A stretch of DNA of 64,000 nt from Cylindrodendrum hubeiense. Taxonomy: Eukaryota; Ascomycota; Sordariomycetes; Hypocreales; Nectriaceae. The position numbers were made by a program, and so were the translations under genes. Below are positions 17,201-52,828 of this stretch, piece by piece (positions within the stretch are counted from its first letter, which is position 1; each line of letters starts with the position of its first letter). The DNA lies in NCBI GenBank assembly GCA_014621425.1, contig JAANBB010000096.1:1-64000 (forward strand), written 5' to 3'. Under the pieces are notes generated by a model. That model saw only the letters and a list, made by a program, of their open reading frames with translations. It did not search any database and was not told the origin of the DNA.

Positions 17201-20200
17201 ATTTGTGTTTGTTGAGTGATTGTCGCTCGATTGTGCTTGGTTGATCAAAGGCGACCTGTCTGAATGGGTAACTGGTGGCATGCGATTATATACGTAAGTT
17301 GTCGCGAGGAGAACGCGTGAGCAGTAGTGTGATGGTGTGTGAGGTGTGTGAGGTGTGAGAGGGTGTGAGATGTGGTGTGGTGATGTTTCGGGGCGGGGGA
17401 ATCGATTCCTATTTAATCTGAATGGATGGGACCTGCCAGGTCATGCATTCAATGAATCACTGACGTACTGGCGTACCGATCGAAGGAAGAACGGCACAGC
17501 CATGACAGACCGGAGCCCCTACCGACCTTTGGGACGCGGGAAGCACCTACCCCGGGCGATGGAAGCTGGCCATGTGCCGCCAGTCGCACCTGCCCTGCCC
17601 TGGCGCCTGCCACTGCTGCTCCCTGTAGATAGCTCCTGCACCCTCCTGCACAGGGCAAGAGCTTCACAAGGGCCCCACCCAGCCCTCCACCGTGGATGGG
17701 GGGCCTGGGGCATACTACATGGTAGAATTGGCAGCGCCCTTTGCGGCTACCTCAGCGGCTTCGTCTGCGGCTTCGTCTGCGGCATTGCCCACGCTTTACC
17801 CACACGGGCCACATCCAAGACACATCCAATACACACGGTTCGCCTGCCATCGGCGCGCGATTGGCCCTGTCACGACAAAAGAACGGGGTGCGTGCGGGGC
17901 AGACTCTTGGGCAAAGTGGCGTCGTCCACCGGATGCACGGCTCGCGTCCACACCCTCGCCGCCAGGCTCCAGTAATGATTCCATCGCTCCAGATTGTCTC
18001 TCTCAACGGGTGGGCAGCGCGCCGAGAGGCCTTTTTCGTGAGACATCGTGTTGCGATACGATGAATGCGACGGCGTCATGGCGGGTATGTCGCTCAGTTC
18101 TTTGCCCAGCTCTTTGCCCAGCTCTTTGCCCAGCTCCTCCTCGCCCAGCTTACCACATTCATCCCCGCCGACACTGATGACCACTCACAAGCAAAACACC
18201 TCCAACGTTTCAAACCCGCCTCGTAAAAAGCCTTCTGATCCTCGCCTTCGTAGATGACGCCAAGTGCCCTCTTCCCTCGGCTGGGGAAACATCCGGCCAC
18301 GATTCGCCCGCCCCCTGCGCTTAGAGACCGGGCGCTCTCATGACAACCCACCACATTCCAGCCAGCAACGATCGACCACCTGGTCCCCCGGAATCGACAT
18401 GGTGCTTACACACTGCCCATACTGCCGAACACCGGCTACCCAGAAGCCAACGTTCCGAGCCGTCGTCTTGCAGACCGACAACTCACGATCCATCGCAACT
18501 CATACTTCTTTTTGACACACCTCGCGGGCCTCGCTTCGGCGCCGAGGCACCCCATTTCAACCTCGACCCACGAAACCACGGAACTCACCCTGCTGCCGAG
18601 AGAGCTCCAACAAAAGTGCTGCAATCTAGCTCTCAATCGTGTCCGAAATTTCCGTCCGATCTACGAGGTGGTGTGCCAATCCGACGTCTATGGGTCCACC
18701 TGTCCAATCATGAGCTCGGCGCATTATCGTCTCCCTGGGGACAGCGCAGCGTGACTTGTGCACTGCCTCCGACTAGCACAACCCAAAATCACAAATGTCG
18801 ACGTCGGCCAAGAAGAGTCGAGCTTGGCAATGAAAATCGACTGACTCAACATCTCGCTCATTATTCCAATCTAGATGTGGAAGTGACCGAAAGAGGGGTG
18901 TCTCCGTAGTCTGCCGACCCCAGTTCCAGAATGTTTCTCGACTTCAGGCCTGGGCCATGGATCGCTAAGGCTTACAACCTCGCCTCAATTGCGCAGCCTT
19001 GTCCCTGAAGCTATGCGTCCGTTCTTACTAAATTTCCACTTTTGTTCGACGTCATCACAATGCCACCTACACCCGCCAATAGAAACACAGCATAGTCTAA
19101 ACCAACAATCTCATCAATTGAAGGCTGAGTCTCGCCTCATCCCCAACCAACGACTCCTTCCAATCTACTCCGCCACTGCTGCACCCACTGTAACCGCTGG
19201 GACTAGATACCTCATTTCTCGGCCAAGACCCCAAGGCCCCAAGGCCCCACCCTCGCCTTTGCCTCGCCCCCGTTTGCCATCTCCCCTTCTATCTCCTTGA
19301 CAACATAAATCCCAGCCTTGATCTTCATTGAATGCACCCCAATGACGAAAAATCTGCCTAGAGTTGTAGCCCACGAGGTGACTTTTGTGACAGTAACCTA
19401 CAGCTTACACGATACCATTATTGACACACTCCGCCGCAACAACCTCCGAGGTATTGGTGGTGCCTTCAGCATAGCCACCAACATGCTCTCCTGTTAGTCT
19501 AATGGTGGCATTTATGGGAAGCCTGATTAATAACTCACATAAGCCCTTTCGTCTAGAGCCGACGGGGCAGTGCTTTATTTCTTCGGCGGTTACCCTCATA
19601 GTATTGATTAGCGGTGACAATGCGCAGTTCAGGCGAGGCGGTTCTGAATGTGATTCGCCTGTTCCCCAACATCTCTTACTGGTATCCTTGTGCAGGGCTT
19701 CCATGCATTTTGGGCAGATTTCTTATTGGGAACTTTCCGCTCCAGTGACCGGTGAGCAATGGAAACGTACGACCATCGCATGGCGATACACTTTGGCCAT
19801 TTCCCCAATCGGAGACCCTGCAGCTTTTAGGTTCCTGTATATTGGCCCATGGATCTGGTGAAATAATGACCTGTATCTTGTGTTGTGGCACTCCTCAAGG
19901 CTGATTTATCATCTCCATCCAATGGACAACCTCAACATAGATGAGCAGGGTGAAAGTTGCTCCCCGCGGAATTTTCAAATTTGGGTTAATGGGAGATCTG
20001 GCATATGTTCCATAAATTTGATATAATTATAATGAAACGGGAAGATCAAATCTGCCTTGAGACCTGTTACATCCTGGTGTCTAAGATGCGAGGGTCGAGG
20101 TTGTGCTGTAGGGTAAGGCACAAACGAAGGGATATGTTAAGCCAAAGTGTTGTTGAAGTGCCACACAAAAATAATCAAGGGGTAATTAGTATTGATTTAC

Positions 20201-20377
20201 TATATTTGGAAAATTCAAACATTATTTTGAGTGTGAGTGTACTCACAAACAAACTGTTGAATCATATTCTGTCGTGTCATAGTTAGGGTGCGTTGACATG
20301 TTGATACCATTGAAATGCCGCTAAGATAGCGCAGGGCTCTTGAGTCGTCTTTTTAAGGCTGCCCTCAACAACCGACG
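17201..20377. other. Gene-free stretch upstream of the tRNA cluster
   Basis: The first part is the promoter side of the stomatin gene, with TGTGAGG-type repeats near 17335-17370. Several overlapping frames of 60-206 codons occur between 17355 and 18909 on both strands. They are rich in Pro, Arg, Ser and His and show no domain or splice support. Short tandem repeats lie at about 17750-17781 and 18092-18136. From about 19.9 kb the base composition turns AT-rich. No RNA gene is seen before 20378. Confidence 0.5.
18092..18136. repeat. 12-bp tandem repeat
   Basis: The unit CAGCTCTTTGCC repeats nearly perfectly three to four times. A related short triplicate of CGGCTTCGTCTG lies just upstream near 17755-17780. 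It is non-coding as far as can be seen and may be length-polymorphic. Confidence 0.7.
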
Positions 20378-20505
20378 TCCCCGATGGCGCAATTGGCTGT
20401 AAGTTACTAAGTTATCCCACTCACCAAAAACAACGTACTAATGATTCTAAAGAGCGCGTTCGACTGTTAATCGAGAGGTTGATGGTTCGAGCCCATCTCG
20501 GGGAG
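20378..20505 (+). tRNA. tRNA-Asn(GTT), copy A, with D-loop intron
   Basis: Acceptor stem TCCCCGA pairs with TCGGGGA, with discriminator G at 20505. The anticodon loop CTGTTAA gives anticodon GTT. The T arm carries the B-box GGTTCGAGCCC. The gene is interrupted at 20399..20452 (54 nt), between D-loop bases T (after GGC) and A of GGCT/AGCGCG. Removing that segment gives a 74-nt tRNA identical to the uninterrupted copy at 22775..22848. The A-box (TGGCGCAATTGG) lies wholly before the insert and is intact. A T5 tract at 20516..20520 fits a Pol III terminator. There is no intron at 37/38. Confidence 0.92.
20399..20452 (+). other. Putative spliceosomal-type intron in tRNA-Asn copy A
   Basis: The 54-nt insert begins GTAAGTTACT, contains TACTAAT and ends TCTAAAG. 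The candidate branch A lies 11 nt from the 3' end. These are the signals of this organism's mRNA introns, which are also often 54 nt. No pairing with the anticodon is needed or seen. Confidence 0.75.
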
Positions 20506-20515
20506 TTCCCGTCTC

Positions 20516-20520
20516 TTTTT
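20516..20520 (+). terminator. Pol III terminator of tRNA-Asn copy A
   Basis: Run of five T ten bases past the discriminator base. Confidence 0.6.
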
Positions 20521-20685
20521 GCAGAATTCTTGGCCTTGATATGTTTCGAGTCATATTTGTGTGTACGTGTGTGGGATGTGGAGCCGAACCTCCACGTCCC
20601 CATTTTTGCGCACTTTAGCGAGGGCTCCGCTAGCGTACCCTTAGACGGAATTATCGAGGACGACCTTCAACAACAAACTGCAACA

Positions 20686-20810
20686 TCCCCGATGGCGCAA
20701 TTGGCTGTAAGTATTCACTCAAATCGAGTTCAAAGACAATCACTAATAATCTCAAAGAGCGCGTTCGACTGTTAATCGAGAGGTTGATGGTTCGAGCCCA
20801 TCTCGGGGAG
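20686..20810 (+). tRNA. tRNA-Asn(GTT), copy B, with D-loop intron
   Basis: Mature sequence is identical to copy A, with the same acceptor stem, anticodon GTT and B-box. It is interrupted at exactly the same D-loop position by a 51-nt insert (20707..20757). The 3' flank TTCCCGTCTCTT is shared with copy A, so A and B are a local tandem duplication about 310 bp apart. T5 at 20833..20837 is a candidate terminator. Confidence 0.92.
20707..20757 (+). other. Putative spliceosomal-type intron in tRNA-Asn copy B
   Basis: The insert begins GTAAGTATTC, has CACTAAT near its end and stops at CTCAAAG. The branch-like A is again 11 nt from the 3' end. The middle of the insert does not resemble copies A or C, so only the splice signals are conserved. 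Confidence 0.75.
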
Positions 20811-21620
20811 TTCCCGTCTCTTAAATCCTTCCTTTTTGCCCCTCCTTTCAAAGGTTTGTGTATAAGATTCGCTCTTAGTTGAGGATGGACTGCACATGGC
20901 ATTTCTAGTACTTCCACATTTATCCACGTGCTTCAGTCTCCTTGATCCAACCCAGAGCTGAATACCTGCTGCGTACTGTTTTTTTCAGGGGGTTTGGGTC
21001 CAGGTGTCTGTATTGTCAATTTGTTGCTTGACATTGAGGTGAAGTGAATGGACTGAGATTCGCGTGATGATGATATGAAAGGGACAAACTATCTAATGTG
21101 AGCCCATTTGTTATTTCTGCTAGGATGATTGATGTGTATATTTATGCAGCCACAGCCATCGTCCGTTAGCCGTCACCCAACGACCTCAGATATAAACCAG
21201 GGAGTGGACTACGAAAAGCAATGCCGTGACTACGATGAAACTGAACAAGTTCATGCTGTTTATTTTCCTAGCTTAGAGAAATGACACCGTAGCCGTCGAC
21301 ATTCCAGATCTATGCTAGCCCAACCAGCAACCACCCACCACCTGTCTGTCTGTCTGGTTAAGTTGCGCATGTTGTTGGATGGAGGTCAGGTTTCCTGTTT
21401 TGGTAATACCTGCCAGAATCGGGTTAACAGCCGACCCGACATGGAACCAGCATGTACTGTGTGGTATACCCAAGCCAAAAGGAAAGAGGAGTGAGGCACC
21501 GCCGCAACTGGTCACGACAACTCACCAAGACAACCTGCATATCATGTCTTCGGCAGGCTCCTCGCCAACACTAGATGGACAGACGACAGGAAGAAAATCG
21601 TGAGAAATGCCAAAAAGGAA
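20811..21620. other. Spacer between tRNA-Asn copy B and tRNA-Pro
   Basis: AT-rich spacer with no supported gene. CACGTG occurs near 20924, without an obvious target gene. Confidence 0.4.
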
Positions 21621-21711
21621 GGGTCTGGCCGGGGATTGAACCCGGGACCTCTCGCAAGCTATGCTATAGGGTTTTCCCTAAGCGAGAATCATACCGCTAG
21701 ACCACCAGACC
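21621..21711 (-). tRNA. tRNA-Pro(AGG) with ordinary 37/38 intron
   Basis: Acceptor stem GGTCTGG pairs with CCAGACC. The D arm is TCTAGCGGTATGA and the anticodon stem is CTCGC/GCGAG. The loop TTAGGG gives anticodon AGG, and the B-box is GGTTCAATCCC. A 19-nt intron at 21657..21675 follows G37 and contains CCCTA, able to pair with the anticodon region, as expected for tRNA endonuclease substrates. A5 on the + strand at 21612..21616 supplies the Pol III terminator. Confidence 0.93.
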
Positions 21712-22049
21712 GGTCGATGCAACTCAGATGAATTGCTGTGATTGCATCACGTGATGGAAATCGCTTTCGTATTGTTACTCAAAGAGCTGACAGCTGCTGT
21801 GTGTTGTTACTGCGAGATGGGGATGAGAACAGGTCGCGTAACGTACTGACACAGAAGAGAAGAATGTTGAACATGTTGATCAATATGATCAGGGTTATTC
21901 AACTTATAGGGATCACTAGATGGTCTGTTCTTCTTTTCAAGCAGCGTTAGATTTTGTTTGTTGTCTCAGATCAAATTGTCTTGACTCCACTGCCATCCCA
22001 TCTTCACTGGTGTTTCGTCAAGTCTCCCTCAAGCAACAGCTAATCACAA
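21712..22049. other. Spacer between tRNA-Pro and tRNA-Glu
   Basis: AT-rich DNA with no supported gene or repeat. Confidence 0.4.
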
Positions 22050-22139
22050 TCCGGTATGGTGTAATGGCTAACATTTCGCGCTCTCATAACTTGAGAGATT
22101 TGTTCCGCGGAGCTCAGGGTTCGATTCCCTGTACCGGAG
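22050..22139 (+). tRNA. tRNA-Glu(CTC) with ordinary 37/38 intron
   Basis: Acceptor stem TCCGGTA pairs with TACCGGA, with discriminator G. The A-box is TGGTGTAATGG and the B-box GGTTCGATTCC. The anticodon stem TCGCG/CGCGG flanks the loop CTCTCA, giving anticodon CTC at 22083..22085. An 18-nt intron occupies 22087..22104 and contains TTGAGAG, complementary to the anticodon loop. T5 follows at 22150..22154. Confidence 0.93.
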
Positions 22140-22774
22140 TAATACCTTCTTTTTGTCCTCTTGTGGGGTTTGTTGTGAATGTCATCTTTTTTGCCTGTCT
22201 GTCTATCATCGAGTCTTGACGCCGCGGTGTCTGGTTTATTGCAAATTCATACAGCAACATATCTTCGAGGTCAAAAGTAAACCAACACACCCAAGATTGT
22301 TGTTGCCCTTTCTGGTTGTGGGCGAATTGGCAGTTGGCCGATTCCTGAAGTATTGTTGTCCTTCTTTCGGTTGTTGTTGGGCTTCTCAATGGGGCTGGCC
22401 GGATGTGGCTAGAGACAATCGATTTCGAGAGAAGCTTGCATTACTTAATTTTCCAATTCTCAAAAAAGACCTGGTAAGTTGTGGCTAAACTGCCTATGGG
22501 GATAGAGTGTGGGAAACTGGTGCTCGTGGGGAATGGCAATGGTCCCATGAGACCGAAGATTTATCATGCACATGGCACGCCCGCTCTGAAAGGCCAAGAG
22601 GGAGGAGTTTCTGGTTAAATTTATGATTAGTCATGCTTCCCGTGCGATTAGGCATTTAAGTTTTGCCGGTGCTGTTACACGTGTAGCAAAAAAGACGCAT
22701 GTTGCATGAAGGTCGCTGACATTAATCCAACACAGCACCAAAAAGAAAACAACAAAAGGAATACAAGATATCGT
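22140..22774. other. Spacer between tRNA-Glu and the minus-strand tRNA-Asn
   Basis: No supported gene. Short frames on both strands have no recognisable content. A4 at 22754..22757 may serve as a weak terminator for the minus-strand tRNA-Asn. Confidence 0.4.
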
Positions 22775-22848
22775 CTCCCCGAGATGGGCTCGAACCATCA
22801 ACCTCTCGATTAACAGTCGAACGCGCTAGCCAATTGCGCCATCGGGGA
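22775..22848 (-). tRNA. tRNA-Asn(GTT), copy D, intronless
   Basis: Continuous 74-nt gene on the minus strand, with acceptor TCCCCGA/TCGGGGA, D arm GCGC/GCGC enclosing the loop AATTGGCTA, anticodon GTT and B-box GGTTCGAGCCC. Apart from lacking the D-loop insert, it equals the mature sequence of copies A, B and C. It therefore fixes the exact insert boundaries in them. Confidence 0.95.
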
Positions 22849-24601
22849 TTTGATTTGATTTGTTTGATGACGAGAATCGTGCGGAAAATGCCTCATATAC
22901 CGTCACCAGGGATAATGATCAACGGAGTGACAACACTCCCCACCATCCCCACCCTCCCCACAAGCAGATACTCAAGTCAATTAAGGAACTATGATCAATG
23001 CAATATAGTATTATTTAATGAGATGATATAACATGATTGATTAAGCTTACCACTAATACTCTGCCACATCCACTTATGTTCCAGCACTCATCTCCACGGG
23101 AATGAATAGCATTTCTCGGCCTTCTCTGCGTCCTCTAACGTTATTGAAGTATTTCGAAACTGAAGTCGCCTTAAGCGTGACGGTAGCTATCGTGCCGGGA
23201 TAGAGTGGGAAATAAGATATCTATGCAGACGAAGCAGAGCAAACACCGTTAGTCCTCTAGATTTCTAGGTGAAATCAGGAAGCACCATGAATACAGCACA
23301 GCCATATGCCATTCACCCAGAATCCATATCAGGCTTCTCCATCGATTATGACTGAACGAATGACCGCTAGATGGTGAGAGGCTAAGAGCAGAGCGCACCA
23401 AACAGCCAGTAGCATCCAGTTGGGAGATAACGAGTGGAACGCGTAGTCGTAGATCTGCACGCTTTGTAGATGAGAAGTCACATGCGCCTGTGTCGTATGC
23501 ATCGGACCGATGCAAATGCTTGTGAGGAGGCTTGCCATCCCTTAGCCACAATAAAGACGTCTTCTGAAGGTGCAAAAGCTACTCAAACCTCAGATACGTT
23601 GAATGCTTCAAGTCGGGTTCCACAGCGGTGACACAAGGGAAGCTCTCACACTATGTGGAAGTAAATTGTTAAAGGACTGAGCTGCACATCGAGTTATTTT
23701 TCGATGACGATGGCACCGTGCTGCGAGGCGTTGGAGTCTGGAGCGACGAATCCGTGAGGCATGATGGGTTTTGAAGGTGCGGAGGCTTCCCTAGTGTCGA
23801 ATCCACCAAATAAGCAGCGTCAATTCAGACTAGCAGCGACACAAGCGGCCCACGCACCGGCAAGAGTATGCCATAGTTGTCGCGCGTAATCAGTTGTTGC
23901 ATATGCGGCAAAGCGTGGAGATTCGCCAGGGACCGATAACCAGATGTGCCAATGAAGCGGGGAAAATTGCCGCTTTGGGCTAGAAAGCCGGAGGAGTGGG
24001 GCCGGATCGGCCGGCTGGTAAAAGGGAAGGTCTCCGACCAGAGGGCAGGAATCAATCAATTACGCATGCGTCTTCATGAGAGATAGCTTTGTGAAGGAAC
24101 GAGACCTTCCCTAGCCCTACTAGTCATAGAGCCTCTTTTAATTCTGTATTATTTGTATTGAACCGGCATTTTCTCTCGAAATTTCCTTGCCATTAGTCGC
24201 GCCCGGGTCTTTGGAACCCGAATTCTCATCACTTTGCACTTGCTTTTCAACGCCTTGCCAAACGCGAAGACCTTCAATTCTTCAACCAAGCATCTGCTTA
24301 GATGCTTTCCATCCCATTGAGCCTTACATCAAGTCAGCTCAGCCGATAGCTCCACCTGTGGCCACACACACATCCGACCCAGGGAGACTCGTTGGCGACA
24401 CCTGATTGGAGATTTTCCGTGTGAGGGCATCTACTTGGGTGTTGTGTTACGATCCTTTTTCCGCCGCTTCAATGGCGTCAGGGCGACCCGAGGTTACAAT
24501 TGGGGTTGGAGTGTTGGGCAGTTATGAACTCCACTTTTTGGGTCCAATACTGCGGGGCTCATATATTTCCTTATCGAAATCAGTTTCCATCAAAATACGC
24601 A
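22849..24601. other. Gene-poor spacer within the tRNA region
   Basis: Mixed AT-rich and normal composition. Frames up to about 108 codons near 23249-23575 and 23820-24059 lack recognisable domains and splice support. They could be eroded mobile DNA, but no terminal repeat or transposase motif is visible. Confidence 0.4.
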
Positions 24602-24729
24602 TCCCCGATGGCGCAATTGGCTGTAAGTTACAAATTTGTCCCGTACTCCGCAAACAACATACTAATTCTCACAAAGAGCGCGTTCGACTGTTAATCGAGA
24701 GGTTGATGGTTCGAGCCCATCTCGGGGAG
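24602..24729 (+). tRNA. tRNA-Asn(GTT), copy C, with D-loop intron
   Basis: Exons are identical to the other Asn copies, with anticodon GTT and B-box GGTTCGAGCCC. A 54-nt insert at 24623..24676 sits at the same D-loop point. Flanks differ from copies A and B, so this is a dispersed copy. A T7 run at 24741..24747 is a strong Pol III terminator candidate. Confidence 0.92.
24623..24676 (+). other. Putative spliceosomal-type intron in tRNA-Asn copy C
   Basis: The insert begins GTAAGTTACA, has ATACTAAT and ends CACAAAG. Its body is partly alignable with copy A (TCCC, ACTC, AACAAC blocks), which implies common descent. The branch-like A is 11 nt from the end. Confidence 0.75.
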
Positions 24730-26649
24730 AGAGTACCTCATTTTTTTGTGCATTTTGATCGTATTTCTGGGGTGATAATACAGTACATCTCTTTTACTTT
24801 TTGTTGGACCGATAATAGTGAGACTCTCGCGTGTTGCCACTGACCTAGCACATGTAAGACGGAGCGGGCTAGGTCCGGCCGAAGAGCATTCCGCGACCAC
24901 CCCCGCCTCCGAGGTCACCGACGCCGTCTCCTCCCGAGAGCGTATGACTCTTGCCAACTTGAATAGCACAAATTCACCCTCGGGATTTATTATAAACATA
25001 ATCATAAATATTTTGCCTGTGCATAGTAATACTGATGACATTTGGGAACGGAGTGCTTATGGTTGCGCCGCTTGCGTGTGAATTACTAAAATGTGGTATT
25101 TGTGTGAGGGTTGTGTTGCAAGACGGCACATATAGAAACTTGAAGTTCGGGAAAAGGATGTACTTAAATACTACTCGCTGACACAATGAAATTTGGACCT
25201 TAGGGACTAGACTGGCAGATGGAGCTCGCTGAGTTGCAACAAGGAACGAGCGGCAAATTCAAAATCTCAAAAGAGGGAGTGCTGGTACAACCCCAAGGCG
25301 AGGTCCTGGGGGAAGCAGTGGAGGAGATGTGGTGGCTCTGGGGTTTTCTGAGTCGATTTTCTTCTGCAAGAACCAGACGCTTTATATTAATCATCCTTCC
25401 CCCTCCTTCACTCCGCCTCATACCAGTGATACGTTGATACTCCTTAATCGACTGACGTTGGGATTTGTAAAGACGGTGGTTGAGGCCGTTTAGCAAAACG
25501 CCCCTTCTGCAAAACTCGTTCTCATTGCGCGCCGTACCCGGTGGGAACGCACCCAGGTCCCGTGTGTGAGGTGTAGTAGCTTATCCTCCTCACCTGGCCC
25601 TCCACCTAACAAACAAATCCACATATTCTAACTCCGAAGTCAATCAGCCTTTACATTTTTCTTCTATTTCTGGGGAAATAAATTTCACCAGTCTGGAGCC
25701 TAATGGATAAAATTACCCTGGTAGATGAGCTGCACTCTAACCACAGCAGTTGACTTCGCCGCCTTGATCAAGATCCGTTGCGCGCAATGCACTATTCGCG
25801 AGGACGACGTGAGTGACCGACGAAAGGAAAGAGACAGTATCGAATCTCCCCTCCTTTAGCAGCTTGCCTCTCCCGCGCCGATGAACAGGCGTATCGCAAG
25901 CAGTACGCTACACTCAAGAACCTCAGGGAAGCGAACCATCCGTTGAACTGGTTTGTAATACTTTTGGCGCATATATCAATCAGGTAGATAAATAGTGAGG
26001 GTAAAGTGGCACCATTACTTATGGCACCTTCCGCTGGTTACCTTTCGTCTACGACAAAGAGACTAATATCGATTTGGAGGATTGGGTACTTTACCCTCCA
26101 GGACTACCCTCAAAGCGTCAGTGATTTTTGCGATCTAGTTGATGTTAGAATATTGTGGGAGCGTTTCATTCGGGCGACTTACAGGCTGGGCATTGGCTCC
26201 TCTTCCACTGGTGAGTTAGCTAATAGAGACGTGAATCTCCCTTCAGGATATACCTATCTTTCCTTTTATCAGTAAACCGGCGACCTTGGATTGGGCTTGC
26301 AACTCCTTCCGCAGCTTCTTAACTTCCTGGTGAATCTGGGTATACCGATCTACGGTCGGAGCCCGTGGCTGAGCTACTGGCGCGTCAGTTGTGTCGAAGC
26401 GCATCAGTCTTCATCCATTGGGTCGGATTCGATCGCTTAGGGCAACGGCACGACTGGACATCATAATGGCTTCGAATAGAACTTCGGATCATCTATAAAA
26501 TGGGTATTTGAACGTATTTTGATTGTGTATCCGTTAGATACGAATGGAGTTACTTAAAATAAATACTATCCCTCCACAGTATTTATCCCAAAAGTACAGC
26601 ACGTAAATAATTAGCATCTTATCCAGTATGCAGGTCTAGAGTAACGCCA
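24730..26649. other. Gene-free stretch between tRNA-Asn copy C and the DNA methyltransferase gene
   Basis: No supported gene. Short frames at 25219..25437 and 26006..26275 carry no family signature. The 3' UTR of the methyltransferase gene should lie in the last few hundred bases. Confidence 0.4.
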
Positions 26650-29600
26650 TCAGTTATCCTCCAGCATAATTACTGATTGTCCCAGTGGGCTCGGGTCGAC
26701 AAGACCACCGTTCATGGCGGAGAGTCTTGTCGCGGCCAAATTAGGCGAGTCGCCCCCCTTGCTCTTGGTCGCCTTGGGCGCCCGGATCTCCACGGCGAGG
26801 GAACTGGAGCGCGATCGTTTGGAGTCTCTAGTGGGAAGTGATGTATGGGACGACGGTGGGGGTGTTAGGTCGGGCGTCATGCTTGAGGCAGGTGTTTGGC
26901 CAGGAGAAGTTCGGAGGCGGGAGAGCACGTCGGGGCCAGTATCGAGGCTCGAGTCGGAGGATACGTCTTCGATTATCGGGGTGGTTGTGGGTTCGACACC
27001 GGAGTGATTTAGGAAAGGGGTGTTTATGGGGACAACAACAGGAGCAACGGGTATAGTGTTGGCAACAGCCGCAGCAACTTCCTGGCCACGACGCTCCTCG
27101 GCCAGACTGCAAACCCACGCTTCGCGGAACACAATTCCAAGGGCCACGGCAACCTCGCGAGCAACGCTGTTGCCCACAATGCGATACTGGTCAGGGGGCG
27201 TCCCCAACAGAACGTCATCGTCGCGGAAGCCCTGCGCTCGGCGGGCCTCCATGATGGTTAGCACACGGTTCTCGCGCCAATGCAGCGTGCGGCCGTTCTT
27301 GGCGTCGCTGGGGCTCTGGCTAGTCACGACGGTCTCGATGAGGCGGGCGGGGAACTGGCGGCCGTAGGCGTTAGAGTTGGGGCGAGAGCGGCTGAGAGAG
27401 CCCCCGTTGTCGGGCGGGAAGACAAGGCGCTCTGCAGCAGTGAGAACGCCGGAGCCTGCGAGCTTGCGGTCGATGCCGAACCAGGCCTGGGCGAAGTTCA
27501 TGCCCCAGGGCTGAGTGGGTATTAGGTTGACTTTGAGGCGGAGCTGCTTGGTGAAGCCGAGCGAGATGCGGTGGTCGGGGAAGGGGACGCATATGTCAGG
27601 CTTGGAGTCGTAGACGGGAGGGAGGTCGGCCGTTGCAAGGCGGGCGGAGACGAAGTCGAAAGGGGTCGCGTCTGGCATGGCGCGCTCAGCCATGGGTTCG
27701 CCAGTGGGCAAGTTGCCCAGAGAGAGCGACTTGGTTAGAGGGGGATGTGCGTGGGTTGGGTCAGGGCGTCGTGGGAGATGGAGGCCAGGGGCAGCAAAGG
27801 CGAGAAACACGCGGGAGCGACGCTGAGGAGAGCCACAGGATGATGCGTCGAGGAAGAAGAAATGGGTCTGGTAGCCAAGACCGACGATGGCGCAGATGAG
27901 CTGACTGAAGACGTCTTGGTCGCGGTTGGCCTTTTTCTGAACGATACCGGGGACGTTCTCGAGCAGGCCGTAACGGGGGCGGTACAGGTCAATGAATGAC
28001 CCAAAGGCTGCGACAAGAGACTGGTTCTTCCGCTGTGCGAGCGTCGTCTTGTCGTTGGTTAAGTGGGAGAAACCTGGGCATGGACTACCGCCGGATATGA
28101 AGTCGACTTCCCCAATGCGAGGGACGTTGCGGCTGAAATGGCCCTTGATCGCGAGCCGCTGCAGGTCGTCGATGGATCCTAGAAAAGGCGACACGGCCTC
28201 GGGTGCCGAGACGTTGGCCATGTATGTGTGCATAGCTTTGGTGTCGTAGTCGTTGGCCCAACGCATCTCAATGCCGCCGCCATCCTCGAGTCCGCGTCCA
28301 AAGTTGCCGCCGCCGCAGAAGAGATCCAGACCACGTAGCCTGGTGATCTCTTCTCCCGGGTCATGACCTTGCCGGAGAGATGAGGGAAAGGTTTCAAGTG
28401 GAGTGTATGATACGTCGTGTGAGTATTCGTCGAAAGTCTCCTGGTGGGTGATGTAGAAGAAGCTGCCCACTCCGTCGCGGTCGTATGGTGTTGGGATCGG
28501 TTCCCCGGTTTTGAAGAATCGCACAAAGCAAGGTTGTCGAATGCGCTGCTTCTTGACTTCGACGAGCTGTTGGCTGTACACAAGCTCGTTTCGCCGGACA
28601 GTCTTCGCCTTGGGGTCGACCTGACTACGCCGCAGCAGCCGCCGGAACCGAAAGATCTCAGTAGCTTCTTCCCTATAAGAAGTCACGAACTCGCAGGGCT
28701 CGGAGCGACCTGTCGACCTATCCAAAATGACGAGGAGCGTCTCGCCCGGCTTGTATTTCGGCCCACGGCTTGGCTTATTTGTGTGCTTGCAGCACATGTG
28801 GTTCTCTTTGAGCGTGATCCACTTACGCTCAGCGTGGATGTAGGTCTGGCGACAGAATAACTCAGCGTGTGTAGCCGACGTGCCCCCAAATTCAACCTCG
28901 TGCACACCCAGGACCTCGCTCTCGGTGATCTTAGAATCCTCGCCACACGAGCAATGGTCCGAAAGGAACAGCTCGTTGTTCCACGGGTATTTCATAATAC
29001 CGCAAAGGGTATCCACGGCACGGTAGTACCAGATGACGTCGAAGGAACGGTGGCCGCGGCGGTCGACGTGGACATGTTGGACAAGGGCAAACCAACGGTC
29101 GACGTCGTTGAAGCCGTGTGACACATCACGCCGCCACTGGGTACCTGATTCGGCACCGTCACGTTGTGTAGAGATGGTATCGCCAGGCTTGATGTCTCGG
29201 ATCTGCTGCTTCGCCGCTGTAGACAGGCACTTAGCAGTGTCATGTATTGGCGACGGCAATTCAAGATGGCGTTGTTGGATGAGCTTATTCCGTAGAGATT
29301 GGGTTCCCTTGCTCAGCGGAACAGCTTCAAGGCGGTCGCCAAATGGGAGGTGTGCAAAGCAGTCGTAGATATACTGAGTAACAACCGTGAGGGGGTTCTG
29401 CGTCTTGTCCTCAAAGGGCTTTCCAGGGGGCTTATAGCAACGATATTCCCAGACCTCCGACCAGAGCGTGTGGGCATAGGTCTTTTCGTAGCCGAGCACA
29501 CCAACGGCCTCCTTGTGCAGAAAGCCAAGATTGGCGATGATGGAGCCACGGAAGTCGTCGCGGGGAAACTGGTTGCGCCAGGCGACGAATTCGGGCACCG

Positions 29601-30585
29601 TCTTGTGCACCTTGTTCATCCACGTGCCGAACGTGCTGCGGAAGTGGAAGATGGTCACCTTACGACGATTCTCGCTCATGACCTTAAGAAAATCGACAAA
29701 GTGCTTGGCCAGGTCGGCCACCCACAGGAACGGATTGAAGAAACGGCGGTACTCAAAGGCAGGCGTGCGTAGGCGGTAGTATATCTCGCGATCGCTGTTG
29801 AGGTCGGAGCGAAGCCATATCTTGTCGCGGACAGTGTGCTTGGTGAGGGTCCCATAGTTGTCGATGGGGATCACCGAAATGGGGACACGTCTGACGAAGA
29901 ACGCCGTGTCGCCGACGCTGAGCTGGCCGTCGAAGAAGAAGTCCCTGTGACCAGTCTTGGTATCGAGTTGATGGAGGGATCGCATCTCCTCCGGAAACTG
30001 CGGCTTGTCGCGGTAAACGGCAAAGTTGTCGAGCTGGAACTCAATAAACTTGACATCTTGGCCGGCCCTCTTGGCAGCCCAGCAGAGAAGACGGACGGCC
30101 TCGGCCTCGGTTTTGATAGGAACGCCGGGTTCGAAGGGTTCGTAGCACGAGCGTGGGGTGATGAGCGTGCTTTCCGGCAGATGTATGCTCAGAGATTTGC
30201 TCATGGGGATGTCAGGAGTGTCGTCCAAGATCAGTTCTTCATCGTCGTGAGTTGCCAAACGATCAGGTCCCAGCTTGACGCTCTCACTGTAGCATACCTC
30301 GGGGGCATTGAGAGCATACTCCTTGATTGCGTCGGGAAGGTCACTGTCGAAGGCGACTGGGCAAGAAGCCGGGCTAAGTGATGGAGCAGCCGTCAGAAGG
30401 CCACTCTGCTCAGCAATGATGTGGTTGTCGTGTATCAGGGCACCATTATCCACGAGTCCAATAGGCCACGACTCGACTGCGAAGAGATCATCCTCGCTTT
30501 GAGTTACAGTCTGAAATTCTTTGTCAAAGATGCTCCCTTCTTCCACTGGGTAGAAAGGGTCGTCGTCTGTGACCAGCCAGTCCAT
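26650..30585 (-). CDS. dim-2: DIM-2-like cytosine-5 DNA methyltransferase
   Basis: Single coding exon of 1311 aa; Neurospora DIM-2 is of similar size. A BAH-type domain lies near residues 495-620 (DRWFALVQHVHVDRRGHRSF onwards). The catalytic domain follows: motif I LDLFCGGGNFGRGL near 753, motif IV GGSPCPGFSH with the catalytic Cys near 833, motif VI ENVPGIV near 877, motif VIII QRRSRVF, and motif X YRIVGNSVA near 1130. All key residues are present, so the enzyme looks active. The N- and C-terminal tails are low-complexity. DIM-2 enzymes perform heterochromatic DNA methylation directed by H3K9me3/HP1, often at RIP-mutated repeats. A 54-nt intron (GTAAGC, CTGAC, CACAG) lies in the 5' leader at 30589..30642, three bases before the ATG. 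Confidence 0.88.
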   Translation of the reverse strand: MDWLVTDDDPFYPVEEGSIFDKEFQTVTQSEDDLFAVESWPIGLVDNGALIHDNHIIAEQSGLLTAAPSLSPASCPVAFDSDLPDAIKEYALNAPEVCYSESVKLGPDRLATHDDEELILDDTPDIPMSKSLSIHLPESTLITPRSCYEPFEPGVPIKTEAEAVRLLCWAAKRAGQDVKFIEFQLDNFAVYRDKPQFPEEMRSLHQLDTKTGHRDFFFDGQLSVGDTAFFVRRVPISVIPIDNYGTLTKHTVRDKIWLRSDLNSDREIYYRLRTPAFEYRRFFNPFLWVADLAKHFVDFLKVMSENRRKVTIFHFRSTFGTWMNKVHKTVPEFVAWRNQFPRDDFRGSIIANLGFLHKEAVGVLGYEKTYAHTLWSEVWEYRCYKPPGKPFEDKTQNPLTVVTQYIYDCFAHLPFGDRLEAVPLSKGTQSLRNKLIQQRHLELPSPIHDTAKCLSTAAKQQIRDIKPGDTISTQRDGAESGTQWRRDVSHGFNDVDRWFALVQHVHVDRRGHRSFDVIWYYRAVDTLCGIMKYPWNNELFLSDHCSCGEDSKITESEVLGVHEVEFGGTSATHAELFCRQTYIHAERKWITLKENHMCCKHTNKPSRGPKYKPGETLLVILDRSTGRSEPCEFVTSYREEATEIFRFRRLLRRSQVDPKAKTVRRNELVYSQQLVEVKKQRIRQPCFVRFFKTGEPIPTPYDRDGVGSFFYITHQETFDEYSHDVSYTPLETFPSSLRQGHDPGEEITRLRGLDLFCGGGNFGRGLEDGGGIEMRWANDYDTKAMHTYMANVSAPEAVSPFLGSIDDLQRLAIKGHFSRNVPRIGEVDFISGGSPCPGFSHLTNDKTTLAQRKNQSLVAAFGSFIDLYRPRYGLLENVPGIVQKKANRDQDVFSQLICAIVGLGYQTHFFFLDASSCGSPQRRSRVFLAFAAPGLHLPRRPDPTHAHPPLTKSLSLGNLPTGEPMAERAMPDATPFDFVSARLATADLPPVYDSKPDICVPFPDHRISLGFTKQLRLKVNLIPTQPWGMNFAQAWFGIDRKLAGSGVLTAAERLVFPPDNGGSLSRSRPNSNAYGRQFPARLIETVVTSQSPSDAKNGRTLHWRENRVLTIMEARRAQGFRDDDVLLGTPPDQYRIVGNSVAREVAVALGIVFREAWVCSLAEERRGQEVAAAVANTIPVAPVVVPINTPFLNHSGVEPTTTPIIEDVSSDSSLDTGPDVLSRLRTSPGQTPASSMTPDLTPPPSSHTSLPTRDSKRSRSSSLAVEIRAPKATKSKGGDSPNLAATRLSAMNGGLVDPSPLGQSVIMLEDN

Positions 30586-31506
30586 TGTCTGTGAGACCAG
30601 TCAGATAAATGTCAATATTCGAGCAAGGGTCGGATCGCTTACAGGGATGTGTTGTGATTAAATTCATTCCATCGCAAATGCATGTTCCTTGTGAGAAAAT
30701 TCGACCAGGAGGAGAGAGGTGAGGTGAGGTCAGAATGATATTGGATGGCAAACAAACGCGCCCCCGACAACGAAGCACCAAAAAGAATACGCAGTGGTGT
30801 GGACCACGCGCCGCACACTGAACCGGGAACAGGGCGTTCCCTTGTCCAAGAAGCCGATGCCTAAAAGAGAGAATAGGTCGCTTGGCAAAGAATCGTCTTT
30901 GAGGTATCCAACGACGCGCGCGCCCACTTCAGAGACGACACCAGCAACAGAAACACAGGCAAGGAGGCTGGGGTATTTCCCGTTCAGGTAAGACAGAAAC
31001 CCAGCAAAATAAAGAACAACAATGCACACCCGGTCGTTCCCAAAAAAACCAGCTCAAGTCTCACCGTGTGGGCGTTCTCCAATGATTAAAACAAAAACAA
31101 GGTGTTTTCGAGGGGAGCACGCGACGCTTCCTTTGTCGTTTGCGATGCAAGGCGACGCGGCGAACGCCCCCGAATAAGGCCAGTCAAGTGGAATGAAAGG
31201 GAGAAATTAGAGCACTCACCTAAGTCGCACGTCCCTTAAACACCACATGGCGCTAACCCCTTTTTGGCAAGTCGCTCGATCACTACATTCACTTATGGCT
31301 TGCATCCTCGACCCCATCGCGGTGCATCCTTCACTCTCTTAGACGTCTCTCCATTATCTATTTTTATATCACGGGACTAGAATATTAATGAAGCAAAGCT
31401 GATTGTCATAATCTATCGGTATCTTCCACCACAACGCCTTGAATGCATCTTGTCGTAAGCCGTAGCCCAGCACGCCGCTGGGTCTTCCCAAACATATTCG
31501 CCATCT
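30586..31506. promoter_or_regulatory. Promoter region of the DNA methyltransferase gene, with 5' UTR intron
   Basis: On the minus strand this region precedes the methyltransferase ATG and follows the SLD2 stop codon. It contains the 30589..30642 leader intron. No other gene is supported. Confidence 0.5.
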
Positions 31507-49843: not shown

Positions 49844-52828
49844 CTATGCGATGAGAGTACTATCCTTCTCCACTGACTCACTACTGGCGTTGATATCCTC
49901 GGTCTTGAGTTTATCCACCCCAGCCACGCCGCTGTCTGCCTCGTCGTAACAGATGCCGAGACCATTCGTATCCTTCTTCTCCAAAGTAGTTCCATTCTCA
50001 GCGCCTTCCTCGAGATTCATCAATGCAGGGGGGCGATGACGCATTTGCTTCGCTTTCGCAAGTGAGATGGTCTTCTGTTGATAGGTGGTCGTGATGGGTT
50101 TGGTGTCGTCTCGGTCAATCGTGGCCTTCATCAGTGCTGCCATCCACAGGCGGCCCTGCTTCAAGTTGGGCACAGCAAAATAGTGAACGGTGGGCTTCGT
50201 GAAGTTAACAGCTCTCGACAGGCCGGCTCGGGGTGGTACGAGCTTGAAAATGAAGACAGAATCATCTCCCTTTTCCAACTCCTCGGAATCGTTCTGACTC
50301 GTTGGCATGGTTTGGCCACCCACAACGCCGGTGATGGTGGCATGGAGGCCTGTCAACTTCTCGTTATCGGCAGGGAGCACCCTGTGGAAGGAGATATCAA
50401 TCAGGCCTTTCTCGTGGTCATCGTCCTCGGAGTAATAATAGGCCAGGCGTCGGCCTTTAAGGACAAACAACCGTGGTTTCCATGTCGTCATGAGGTTGGA
50501 GCTCTTCTTCTTCATCCAACCGCTGTAGTCCGCATCCTTCATCGCCTCCTTGGGTGGAATTTTCAACAGGCCACGGGTATATGCGCTGGTCTCCTTCTTA
50601 CTCTTCTTGCGGCTATTCTTGCTGAGTTGGGTCGTCGATGTGCTAGGACTCTTTGCGGTGTCGAGGAGACTCGAAGGTCGAANCTGGGCCCCCCGGAGGG
50701 CGTGGTCGATCCAGTACGCGCAGGCGACTCAACCATCGTTTCTTTGCTAGGCGAGTCGATGGGCGTCCCGGTCTTAGAACGGTCGCTGCTCTGGTTATCT
50801 GAGATGGTACGCTTACCCATGCTTCCAGCTAGGGACATGGGCTTGTTGACCACGGCAGAGAGCCAGTCCGAATTGAATCCAGGGATTTTCGACGTCGATG
50901 CTGAGGTCGACGAGCGACCAGCTCCAACCGACGTGTCGAGTTTCGTCACGGTGGGTGACGGAGTTTCGCCGGCTGCTGGCATATTCCTGATGGACTCAGT
51001 GGTAGTGCTCGATGCCGTTCTCCTGTGAGGCCCTGACTGGAGACCATAATACTTATGGGCGGCTGAAGACAAGCCGCCTTCGGTCAATGAGCCTATGCTG
51101 CCAAACCTCGACTGCCTCGTGATGGCCGTGGCGCTGCGAACCCTCTGTTCCTCCGCATAGCTCGATTTTCTGGATTCCGCGCCGCTGTCGCGCTTTCGCA
51201 GTAGATTCCGCTTTCTCCCATCCACCTCTGTCCCAGAGAAATACCCTCGGTCTAACTCGACGGCCGAATCTTGAAGATCTGCGCCACTTGGGGGGCTCAA
51301 GAGATCTTGAAGGCCAGTCGAGGACAAGGGCCTTGGTGTGGCGCCTCCTAGAGTCCAATTCCGGTCAAATGACGGCTGCTTTTTATGCGACCCTTCGCTG
51401 CTGGGGAACGTACCGAGGTTGGCGATCTTGGGGATAGGAGCCGTTCCGGTCGTTATCGCCGTCCCAGGGAGGTGGAACTCGGTGGAAGAATGACGGCGCG
51501 ACTGGTGCATTTCCCTGATAGACGCAGCGGACGGTCTCTTGATATGGGTTGAACGGGACGGACTGTCTTGGGCTATCGGTGTAAGTGTTGTCGTCGGAGA
51601 AGCTTTGGGGGTATGAGACAGGGAAAGTCGTCTTGTCTGGATGGAAGTAGGCCGGTTTGTCAAGGTGTTTGTTCGACTCCTTGTCCGCCGTCCTTCTTCG
51701 GGTCCAGCTTCGCTCCCGTATGTTTGCGTTGACCGCCGTGTTTCAAGCCCCGAGCCACTGACTTCGTCCTGGAGGGCCTTAATCTTGTGCCACGTCTTGA
51801 GTCGTCGACCGACCGAGCCTAGATCAAACGCCTTGATAAATAGTGAGCTTTGGTCCATGCCCAGGAGTACCTCTCCCGATATTTCTTGGTCTCTGAAGAC
51901 CTCGCAGTGATGCTTCTCCACACCCGAGGTGAATAGATACTCAGCAACCGCGTCGGCGGACCACGATTCCACTTCCATACGGGTGGTATGAGATCCGTCT
52001 TCCTCTTCGTCGGTTTCCTCTCCATGGATGTAGGACGTTCGATTGTCAAGGTGATTGCTACTATACTCGCTTCCGGAATCGTTTCCGGTTGTTCGCAACC
52101 CGCCATTGCTCGAGGGCGACCGGAGGTCTGTAATATGCTCGTCGATAACGGTCAAAGTTTCGTGCAACACAGGGCTGTCCTGGGTCGGGTTTGCGAGTTG
52201 AGCAAGGAGAGACATCGAGGGCGGTTCTGTCGGAGCGAGAACGGAGTCGGGCTTGACCGAGTTCAGCGGCAGGGTAACCGGATGGTCGATTGGTTGCGAC
52301 AGGGTCGCGGGTTGGGGCTTGGTAACATGGTTATCCTTCGGGGCCGCATCGGCCGTGCCTATCACTCTGGGTTCTGTTGGTTGGGGACTGGTGGGTTTTG
52401 AAGCAAACGAGCTGGTAGGGATATTCTTGGGAGCGGGTCGAGTGTAGACTGGCGAGCGTTAGTCGCTTCGGCGGATATTAGATGTCAGCGCGGGACAGAC
52501 AAACCTTCGGGGAAGAGACCGGTGTTGCTGTTGACGAGGTGGCGACCCAGAAACCAGCCATCGCCGAACTCGTCATCTCGTTCGATGAGTTCGACTCTAT
52601 CACCCTTTGCAAGGCTCAATTCGTCGGAACTGCGGGCCTGGAAGTCATCTGCATGTAAAAAAGCCACGGGTCAGAAGAGCAGCGCGATAGGTGCGGCGAA
52701 GATTGGAGGGAGGGAGGGCATTCAGAGGCTCGACGAAGGAGACTCAACGAAGGAGACTCACGTATCACGAGCAAAAGATCGCCTGCCGCGGGGCGGACAT
52801 GGCCATCGTTGGGGCCTCTTGCGGCCAT
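49844..52828 (-). CDS. Boi1/Boi2-like SH3-SAM-PH polarity protein (frame break at an N)
   Basis: Three exons on the minus strand, 52762..52828, 52505..52648 and 49844..52448, about 938 aa. The SH3 domain spans residues about 15-72 (LLLVIHDDFQARSSDELSLA, WFLGRHLVNSNTGLFPEGVY), assembled over two introns. A SAM domain lies near 229-297 (WSADAVAEYLFTSGVEKHHC, GVEKHHCEVFRDQEISG). A PH domain lies near 708-845 (GWMKKKSSNLMTTWKPRLFV, LKGRRLAYYYSEDDDHEKG). Ser/Thr-rich linkers separate them. This order is that of the Bem1/Cdc42-associated Boi proteins of bud and hyphal tips. At 50683 the sequence has an N; upstream and downstream frames differ by one base there (exon total is 3n+2). The break is best explained by one missing base at the N. 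Confidence 0.85.
50683..50683. other. Ambiguous base (N) at a coding frame break
   Basis: The only non-ACGT symbol noticed in the window. It sits next to a C6 run (GGGCCCCCCGG). Reading the N as two bases restores one frame through to the PH domain. Confidence 0.85.

Follow-up and report, generated by a model that had tools for sequence, protein, structure and literature searches.

Introns in nuclear tRNA genes are taught as the domain of the tRNA splicing endonuclease. In the available part of a published account, the canonical intron lies between positions 37 and 38 and is handled by the Sen endonuclease and the Trl1 ligase (PMC4090602). Here we analyzed a 64,000-nucleotide stretch of the genome of the fungus Cylindrodendrum hubeiense (contig JAANBB010000096.1, positions 1 to 64,000; hereafter the window), in which three tRNA-Asn(GTT) genes are interrupted in the D-loop by inserts that resemble spliceosomal introns. 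Across the genome, we identified 19 tRNA genes with inserts of this type, of five kinds: tRNA-Asn, tRNA-Phe(GAA), tRNA-Arg(ACG), tRNA-Cys(GCA), and tRNA-Arg(TCT). Judging from their sequences, at least 19 nuclear tRNA genes very probably contain U2-type spliceosomal introns within functional genes of RNA polymerase III (Pol III).

Spliceosomal-type introns have precedents in other structural RNAs. An mRNA-type intron was reportedly described in fungal nuclear 18S rDNA in 1993, a case that, judging by the title of the paper, is alike in placing such an intron in a structural RNA gene and different in having an rRNA host. U6 small nuclear RNA (snRNA) is a Pol III transcript. Fungal U3 small nucleolar RNA (snoRNA) has been described as one as well, and according to the accessible part of the same study, no small structured RNAs other than U3 and U6 are known to carry introns frequently (PMC5832005). 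The tRNA inserts resemble the fungal U6 and U3 introns of that study, which are U2-type introns in small structured RNAs with GT, RCTRAY, and AG signals; in both settings paralogs with and without an intron coexist in one genome and the intron positions cluster (PMC5832005, as far as available). They differ in that the host is a tRNA and in that five families are interrupted at five positions within one genome.

Among tRNA introns, the inserts share with the canonical class their place in nuclear tRNA genes, and by our own reading this genome has ordinary 37/38 introns too (in Met, Ile, Lys, Ser, and Leu tRNA genes). They are unlike that class in position, borders, and branch motif, and they lack an endonuclease-type structure. 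Introns in the D-arm and at other non-canonical positions, as seen here, are described for Cyanidioschyzon merolae and for nucleomorphs, and the permuted-gene junctions of C. merolae also occur at 20/21 (PMC3978253 and PMC4090602, in the parts available). Those introns are of the bulge-helix-bulge (BHB) type in C. merolae and 3 to 24 nt long in the Guillardia nucleomorph, whereas the inserts here measure 51 to 57 nt, carry spliceosomal signals, and form no BHB. According to the accessible part of one account, short insertions in the D- or T-arm of other eukaryotic tRNAs mostly occur in a single gene out of many synonymous ones, presumed to be a pseudogene (PMC4090602); the pattern here differs from such a lone member among many synonymous genes. 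In the portion available, the tRNAscan-SE 2.0 paper seeks non-canonical introns in archaea, and the word "spliceosome" is absent from its main text (PMC8450103). A literature search conducted largely outside subscription journals yielded no account of tRNA genes with spliceosomal introns.

Interrupted tRNA genes and their splice signals

A sequence-only reading of the window had proposed that three tRNA-Asn genes carry, at one common point of the D-loop, inserts measuring 54, 51, and 54 nt, each starting GTAAGT, containing ACTAAT with 11 nt after the candidate branch A, and ending AAAG. The coordinates, lengths, and signals hold in all three genes (Table 1). In each, a single cut of the insert's length restores the intronless tRNA-Asn gene of the window exactly, and the piece removed is GTAAGT...AAAG. 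The string TGGCGCAATTGGCTGTAAGT occurs three times in the window, compared with 0.00 expected from 100 shuffles. Ordinary 37/38 introns had also been proposed in two neighboring genes, Glu(CTC) at 22050-22139 and Pro(AGG) at 21621-21711 (minus strand), and we agree on reading the sequence; ARAGORN labels these two genes SeC and Stop. Beyond the window, there are 16 further genes of the same kind as the interrupted Asn genes, two of them tRNA-Asn and 14 in the four other families.

Table 1. Parts of the tRNA-Asn(GTT) genes in the window
Feature	Position	Strand	Details
Copy A, exon 1	20378..20398	+	Holds A box
Copy A, intron	20399..20452	+	54 nt, GTAAGT...AAAG, branch A 20441
Copy A, exon 2	20453..20505	+	Anticodon arm and B box
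Copy A, T5 run	20516..20520	+	Likely Pol III terminator
Copy B, exon 1	20686..20706	+	
Copy B, intron	20707..20757	+	51 nt, branch A 20746
Copy B, exon 2	20758..20810	+	
Copy B, T5 run	20833..20837	+	Likely Pol III terminator
Copy C, exon 1	24602..24622	+	
Copy C, intron	24623..24676	+	54 nt, branch A 24665
Copy C, exon 2	24677..24729	+	
Copy C, T7 run	24741..24747	+	Likely Pol III terminator
Intronless tRNA-Asn	22775..22848	-	Identical to spliced product of all five intron-bearing Asn genes

Our genome-wide scans covered 47.5 Mb in 798 contigs of this one fungal genome. The anticodon-arm string of tRNA-Asn gave six matches, five of them with the D-loop insert (three in the window and one each on contigs C90 and C117). 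A search for the D-arm followed by GTAAGT revealed tRNA-Phe(GAA) genes of the same arrangement, and an insert is present in seven of nine tRNA-Phe matches, with an intronless gene on C557 and a decayed relic with an insert on C31. For tRNA-Arg(ACG), four of nine matches bear an insert, all in tandem on C129, and the other five are intronless; one of these, at C85:8284, equals the spliced C129 product, and the remaining four differ by a few bases. Two tRNA-Cys(GCA) genes carry an insert (C155 and C368) alongside at least three intronless ones, and one tRNA-Arg(TCT) gene carries an insert on C508, the other copies lying outside the search scope. A pattern joining branch motif, AG, D-stem, and T-arm had 12 matches, all Asn or Phe, against none for the reversed control. 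Some of these genes form tandem arrays with members ~200 bases apart, namely the four Arg(ACG) genes at C129:64742-65478 and three Phe genes at C70:37179-37719.

The Asn and Phe searches, in which 3 mismatches were permitted over 28 to 29 nt, and the branch-motif search relied on splice motifs or known tRNAs. We also ran scans whose pattern held no splice motif and specified an A box, a gap of 72 to 104, and a T-arm. These gave 9, 16, 17, 6, and 6 matches (reversed controls 5, 6, 4, 7, and 7) at 48 distinct places, at each of which the acceptor stem (seven pairs) and the T-stem (five pairs) were scored. Twenty-three places passed with 6 to 7 and 5 pairs, 22 failed with at most 5 and 4, and three (C359, C690, and C693) were not readable in this test. 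The 23 passing genes comprise seven Phe, five Asn, four Arg(ACG), one Arg(TCT), and two Cys genes, three genes with long 37/38 introns (C87, C168, and C362), and one gene on C518. The spliceosomal set of GT, branch motif, and AG occurs in the first 19 of these 23 long-insert genes; the three 37/38 introns lack it.

The C518 gene (L118, C518:21166-21300) has perfect acceptor, D, and T stems and, in the anticodon arm, an insert within which a segment of ~20 nt is repeated. Its insert contains no spliceosomal signal set, and no excision restores a standard anticodon loop, so the gene leaves the odds of spliceosomal introns in the other genes unchanged. When long introns are permitted, ARAGORN proposes to read it as Arg(acg); by its sequence, the gene is apparently broken. 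Because the scans left out A boxes starting TAGT, other T-arms, and inserts well above ~70 nt, 19 is a lower bound. Two scans of viral contigs returned no match, and a scan of GTDB contigs returned four chance matches, all lacking a B box, and no relative.

The inserts fall at 19/20, 20/21, 20a/21, 24/25, and 31/32 (numbered by hand), and 16 of the 19 stand immediately before A21 or C20 of the D-loop. All come after the A box and before the B box, clear of both, which by our own reading is the zone where an insert would spare the Pol III promoter and terminator. The spacing from A box to B box, start to start, is 96 to 102, and Pol III would be expected to tolerate such lengthened spacing.

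To compare the inserts with ordinary introns, we turned to a set of 2022 introns from four Fusarium species, for which the available part of the report gives a GTAAGT consensus, CTRAY in 91%, YAG|R in 94%, RAG in 5.7%, and lengths of 42 to 529 nt (PMC5677156). The tRNA inserts, at 51 to 57 nt, fall inside that range. All 19 start with GTANG (GTAAGT in seven, GTATGT in four, GTAAGC in four, GTACGT in three, and GTATGG in one), and all contain a YTRAY branch motif (CTAAY in 18 and TTAAC in one) with the branch A 11 to 13 nt from the intron end. All likewise end in AG, as YAG in 14 and as AAAG in the five Asn introns. Scored with the Fusarium percentages, the 5' sites average 8.8 bits (lowest 4.6), compared with 7.2 expected for Fusarium mRNA introns. 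Thus the hallmarks of a U2-type intron, GT...AG borders with a U1-complementary 5' site, YTRAY, and length, are present in 19 of 19. With limits chosen after inspection of the data, a random insert would satisfy all three signals at ~7e-6; since the signals recur in five families, chance is no serious reading despite the kinship of copies within a family.

Eight mRNA introns in the window, read by eye with GT-AG in mind, begin GTATGT, GTAGGT, GTACGC, GTACCT, GTAAGT, or GTGAGT and have YTRAY 10 to 33 nt from the end, signals of the kind seen in the tRNA inserts. The four conserved protein genes that contain them were placed with the help of Pfam (the V-ATPase AC39 subunit, a ribosomal S2 family protein, a Nop-domain protein, and a Band 7 protein). 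Searching this genome for mRNA introns by codon usage proved too weak, with six and then nine candidates, mostly doubtful, and was not used.

Exon constraint and the weighing of alternatives

Excision yields a sequence identical to the intronless Asn gene in five of five cases and, for Arg(ACG), identical to one intronless gene in four of four. The intronless paralogs set the borders uniquely in Asn and with a one-base ambiguity in Arg(ACG) and Phe. The exons show no differences among the five Asn, the four Arg(ACG), or the two Cys genes and at most two bases among the seven Phe genes, while mean identity of the intron cores is 0.57 in Asn, 0.63 in Phe, 0.56 in Arg, and 0.65 in Cys, against 0.48 to 0.51 for shuffled cores. 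Over the 30 nt upstream, mean identity within families is 0.54 to 0.60, with one Phe pair at 0.97. Gene conversion, for its part, should drag the intron along with exons that lie tens of bases away on both sides of it. Compared with their intronless counterparts, the intron-bearing Phe genes show two doubly compensated pairs, 4:69 and 49:65, and the Cys genes show two in the anticodon stem.

All 19 spliced forms make 20 or 21 of 21 cloverleaf pairs (20 in Cys). In the eight intact Phe genes read (L050-L058, L069), whether or not they carry an intron, the acceptor pair 5:68 is a G-A or G-G mismatch. With default settings, ARAGORN found 19 of 19 spliced forms with the right anticodon and none of the unspliced forms; with a larger allowed intron, it found five unspliced genes, two with the wrong anticodon. 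Minimum free energy folding gave non-cloverleaf folds for several good tRNAs and carries no weight here. Both internal Pol III boxes, A and B, are intact in every one of the 19 genes, and a stretch of at least five T starts 4 to 22 nt after each gene.

Taken together, these data make maturation by the spliceosome the best-supported reading of the Asn precursors, as the sequence-only reading had suggested, with splice signals in all 19 genes, borders that paralogs fix exactly or to within one base in three families, and a full endonuclease-type structure in none. Its other branch, an unusual mode of transcription, is not needed because the internal boxes and the T-run are undamaged in all 19 genes. 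We infer spliceosomal removal from the splice signals, the same step that has been taken for most fungal U3 introns. Pol III would read the whole gene from the internal A and B boxes to the T-run, U1 would pair with GUANG at the 5' end of the intron and U2 with the CUAAY branch site, and the intron would leave as a lariat. The joined exons would then fold into a normal cloverleaf and undergo the usual end trimming, and the ordinary 37/38 introns of other tRNA genes would still pass through the tRNA endonuclease. It is also likely that the spliceosome is a main tRNA-maturation machine in this genome, serving most Asn and Phe genes and part of the Arg and Cys genes, and that the introns were gained several times independently, always outside the A and B boxes.

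Several observations weigh against spliceosomal introns in functional genes. The case is built on the DNA sequence of one genome. Some Phe introns are close copies (cores as much as 0.90 identical), which means that the 19 cases are not independent, and the single pairs at that level indicate that some Phe copies are recent. The AAAG end of the Asn introns is of the RAG type, ~5.7% of introns in the available Fusarium data. The 5' site of the Cys intron on C155 is weak (GTATGG, 4.6 bits), the Cys intron on C368 has TTAAC as its branch motif, and both Cys introns and the Arg(TCT) intron hold an early AG, a few bases past the branch A, that splicing would have to pass over. None of the 19 first exons ends in AAG, although 13 have G at -1. 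Intronless genes also exist for Asn, Phe, Arg(ACG), and Cys, four of the five families, and more divergent intronless Asn or Phe genes, beyond three mismatches, could have escaped the search. One further point, a partial BHB-like pairing, belongs with the alternative it favors.

That alternative, that the tRNA splicing endonuclease cuts the inserts at non-canonical sites and the mRNA-like signals are incidental, needed testing because endonuclease-type ectopic introns are known in C. merolae and nucleomorphs, whose tRNAs have D-arm introns and non-canonical junctions (PMC3978253 and PMC4090602, as available). A 4-bp pairing between exon 1 and the intron end, the center of a BHB, can be drawn in eight of 19 genes with G-U counted. 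It is lacking in all Arg(ACG), Cys, and Arg(TCT) introns and in four of the twelve Asn and Phe introns, and a full BHB occurs in none of the 19, neither flanking helix being complete in any. The enzyme of eukaryotes is believed to find the splice sites by their distance from the body of the tRNA (PMC4090602, in the part available). Under endonuclease cleavage, moreover, the GT, branch motif, and AG present in every one of the 19 inserts would be without explanation, and we regard this alternative as quite improbable.

A second alternative holds that the intron-bearing genes are unspliced, unused pseudogenes and that the intronless copies of the four families do the work. Two broken genes are indeed present, the gene on C518 and the Phe relic with its intron on C31 (L070, C31:41630). 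The latter gives the picture of a dead copy, in that both exons and the AG of the intron are mutated, whereas in the 19 genes the exons are kept exactly or within two bases while the introns diverged, and stem pairs are compensated. The searches found one intronless gene each for Asn and Phe, compared with at least 11 genes for Asp and at least nine genes for Thr(AGT) among the 59 tRNA matches listed. In six long open reading frames (ORFs), 4969 codons include 160 for Asn, 176 for Phe, 329 for Asp, and 181 ACT or ACC for Thr, so that Asn and Phe codons are each about half as common as Asp codons. With the intron-bearing copies dead, the known working genes would come down to one for Asn and one for Phe, which does not fit the 11 or more for Asp, and we give this alternative very little credence.

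Equally hard to credit is the notion that the exons belong to Pol II transcripts that borrow tRNA sequence and undergo ordinary mRNA-type splicing with no tRNA made: the splice signals are of mRNA type, but both internal Pol III boxes and the T-run just past the gene are there in 19 of 19, and conservation follows the tRNA, with the mean upstream identity within families low and individual Phe pairs reaching the 0.97 noted above.

Other identities for the inserts were rejected. The sequence-only reading had argued from their differing bodies that they are not mobile elements. This holds for introner-like mobile insertions, given that the bodies have mostly diverged and that no target-site duplication was found at the Asn, Phe, and Arg borders tested; old introner-like insertions may still lie at the origin of the introns. 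Group I and II introns were rejected on length, 51 to 57 nt being below the size of a group I or II ribozyme core, and an Rfam scan of the window returned tRNA as the sole family, with two matches. Canonical endonuclease introns were rejected on position, with 37/38 used in none of the 19.

If spliceosomal maturation of these tRNAs is true, it would constitute a second nuclear route of tRNA splicing, with exons joined free of endonuclease-ligase chemistry, and the spliceosome would be able to act on tRNA precursors made by Pol III. The supply of these tRNAs would then be tied to splicing capacity, beside a working endonuclease route for 37/38 introns. Such introns could also hide tRNA genes from annotation, because ARAGORN in its default mode detects none of the 19 genes. 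That such introns seem to have been gained repeatedly at set points within a single genome would offer a system for studying the origin of spliceosomal introns.

Surroundings of the tRNA-Asn genes

The stretch of the window from 18910 to 26649 contains the four tRNA-Asn genes together with the Glu and Pro tRNA genes and no ORF of at least 150 codons among those listed. GC content is 0.465 at 20001-24000 and 0.552 and 0.524 in the adjoining stretches. Farther along, unknown base(s) of the assembly lie inside the overlapping ORFs 49844-50728 and 50563-52458 (both minus strand), where they appear as X in the translations. At 26650-30600 on the minus strand, a DIM-2-like cytosine-5 DNA methyltransferase is encoded in one uninterrupted open frame. 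Its identity is 85% to the Ilyonectria destructans protein, 78% to that of Dactylonectria estremocensis, and 77% to that of Neonectria punicea, which places the fungus among ascomycetes near these and close to Ilyonectria; the three genera are Nectriaceae, the same family as Fusarium.

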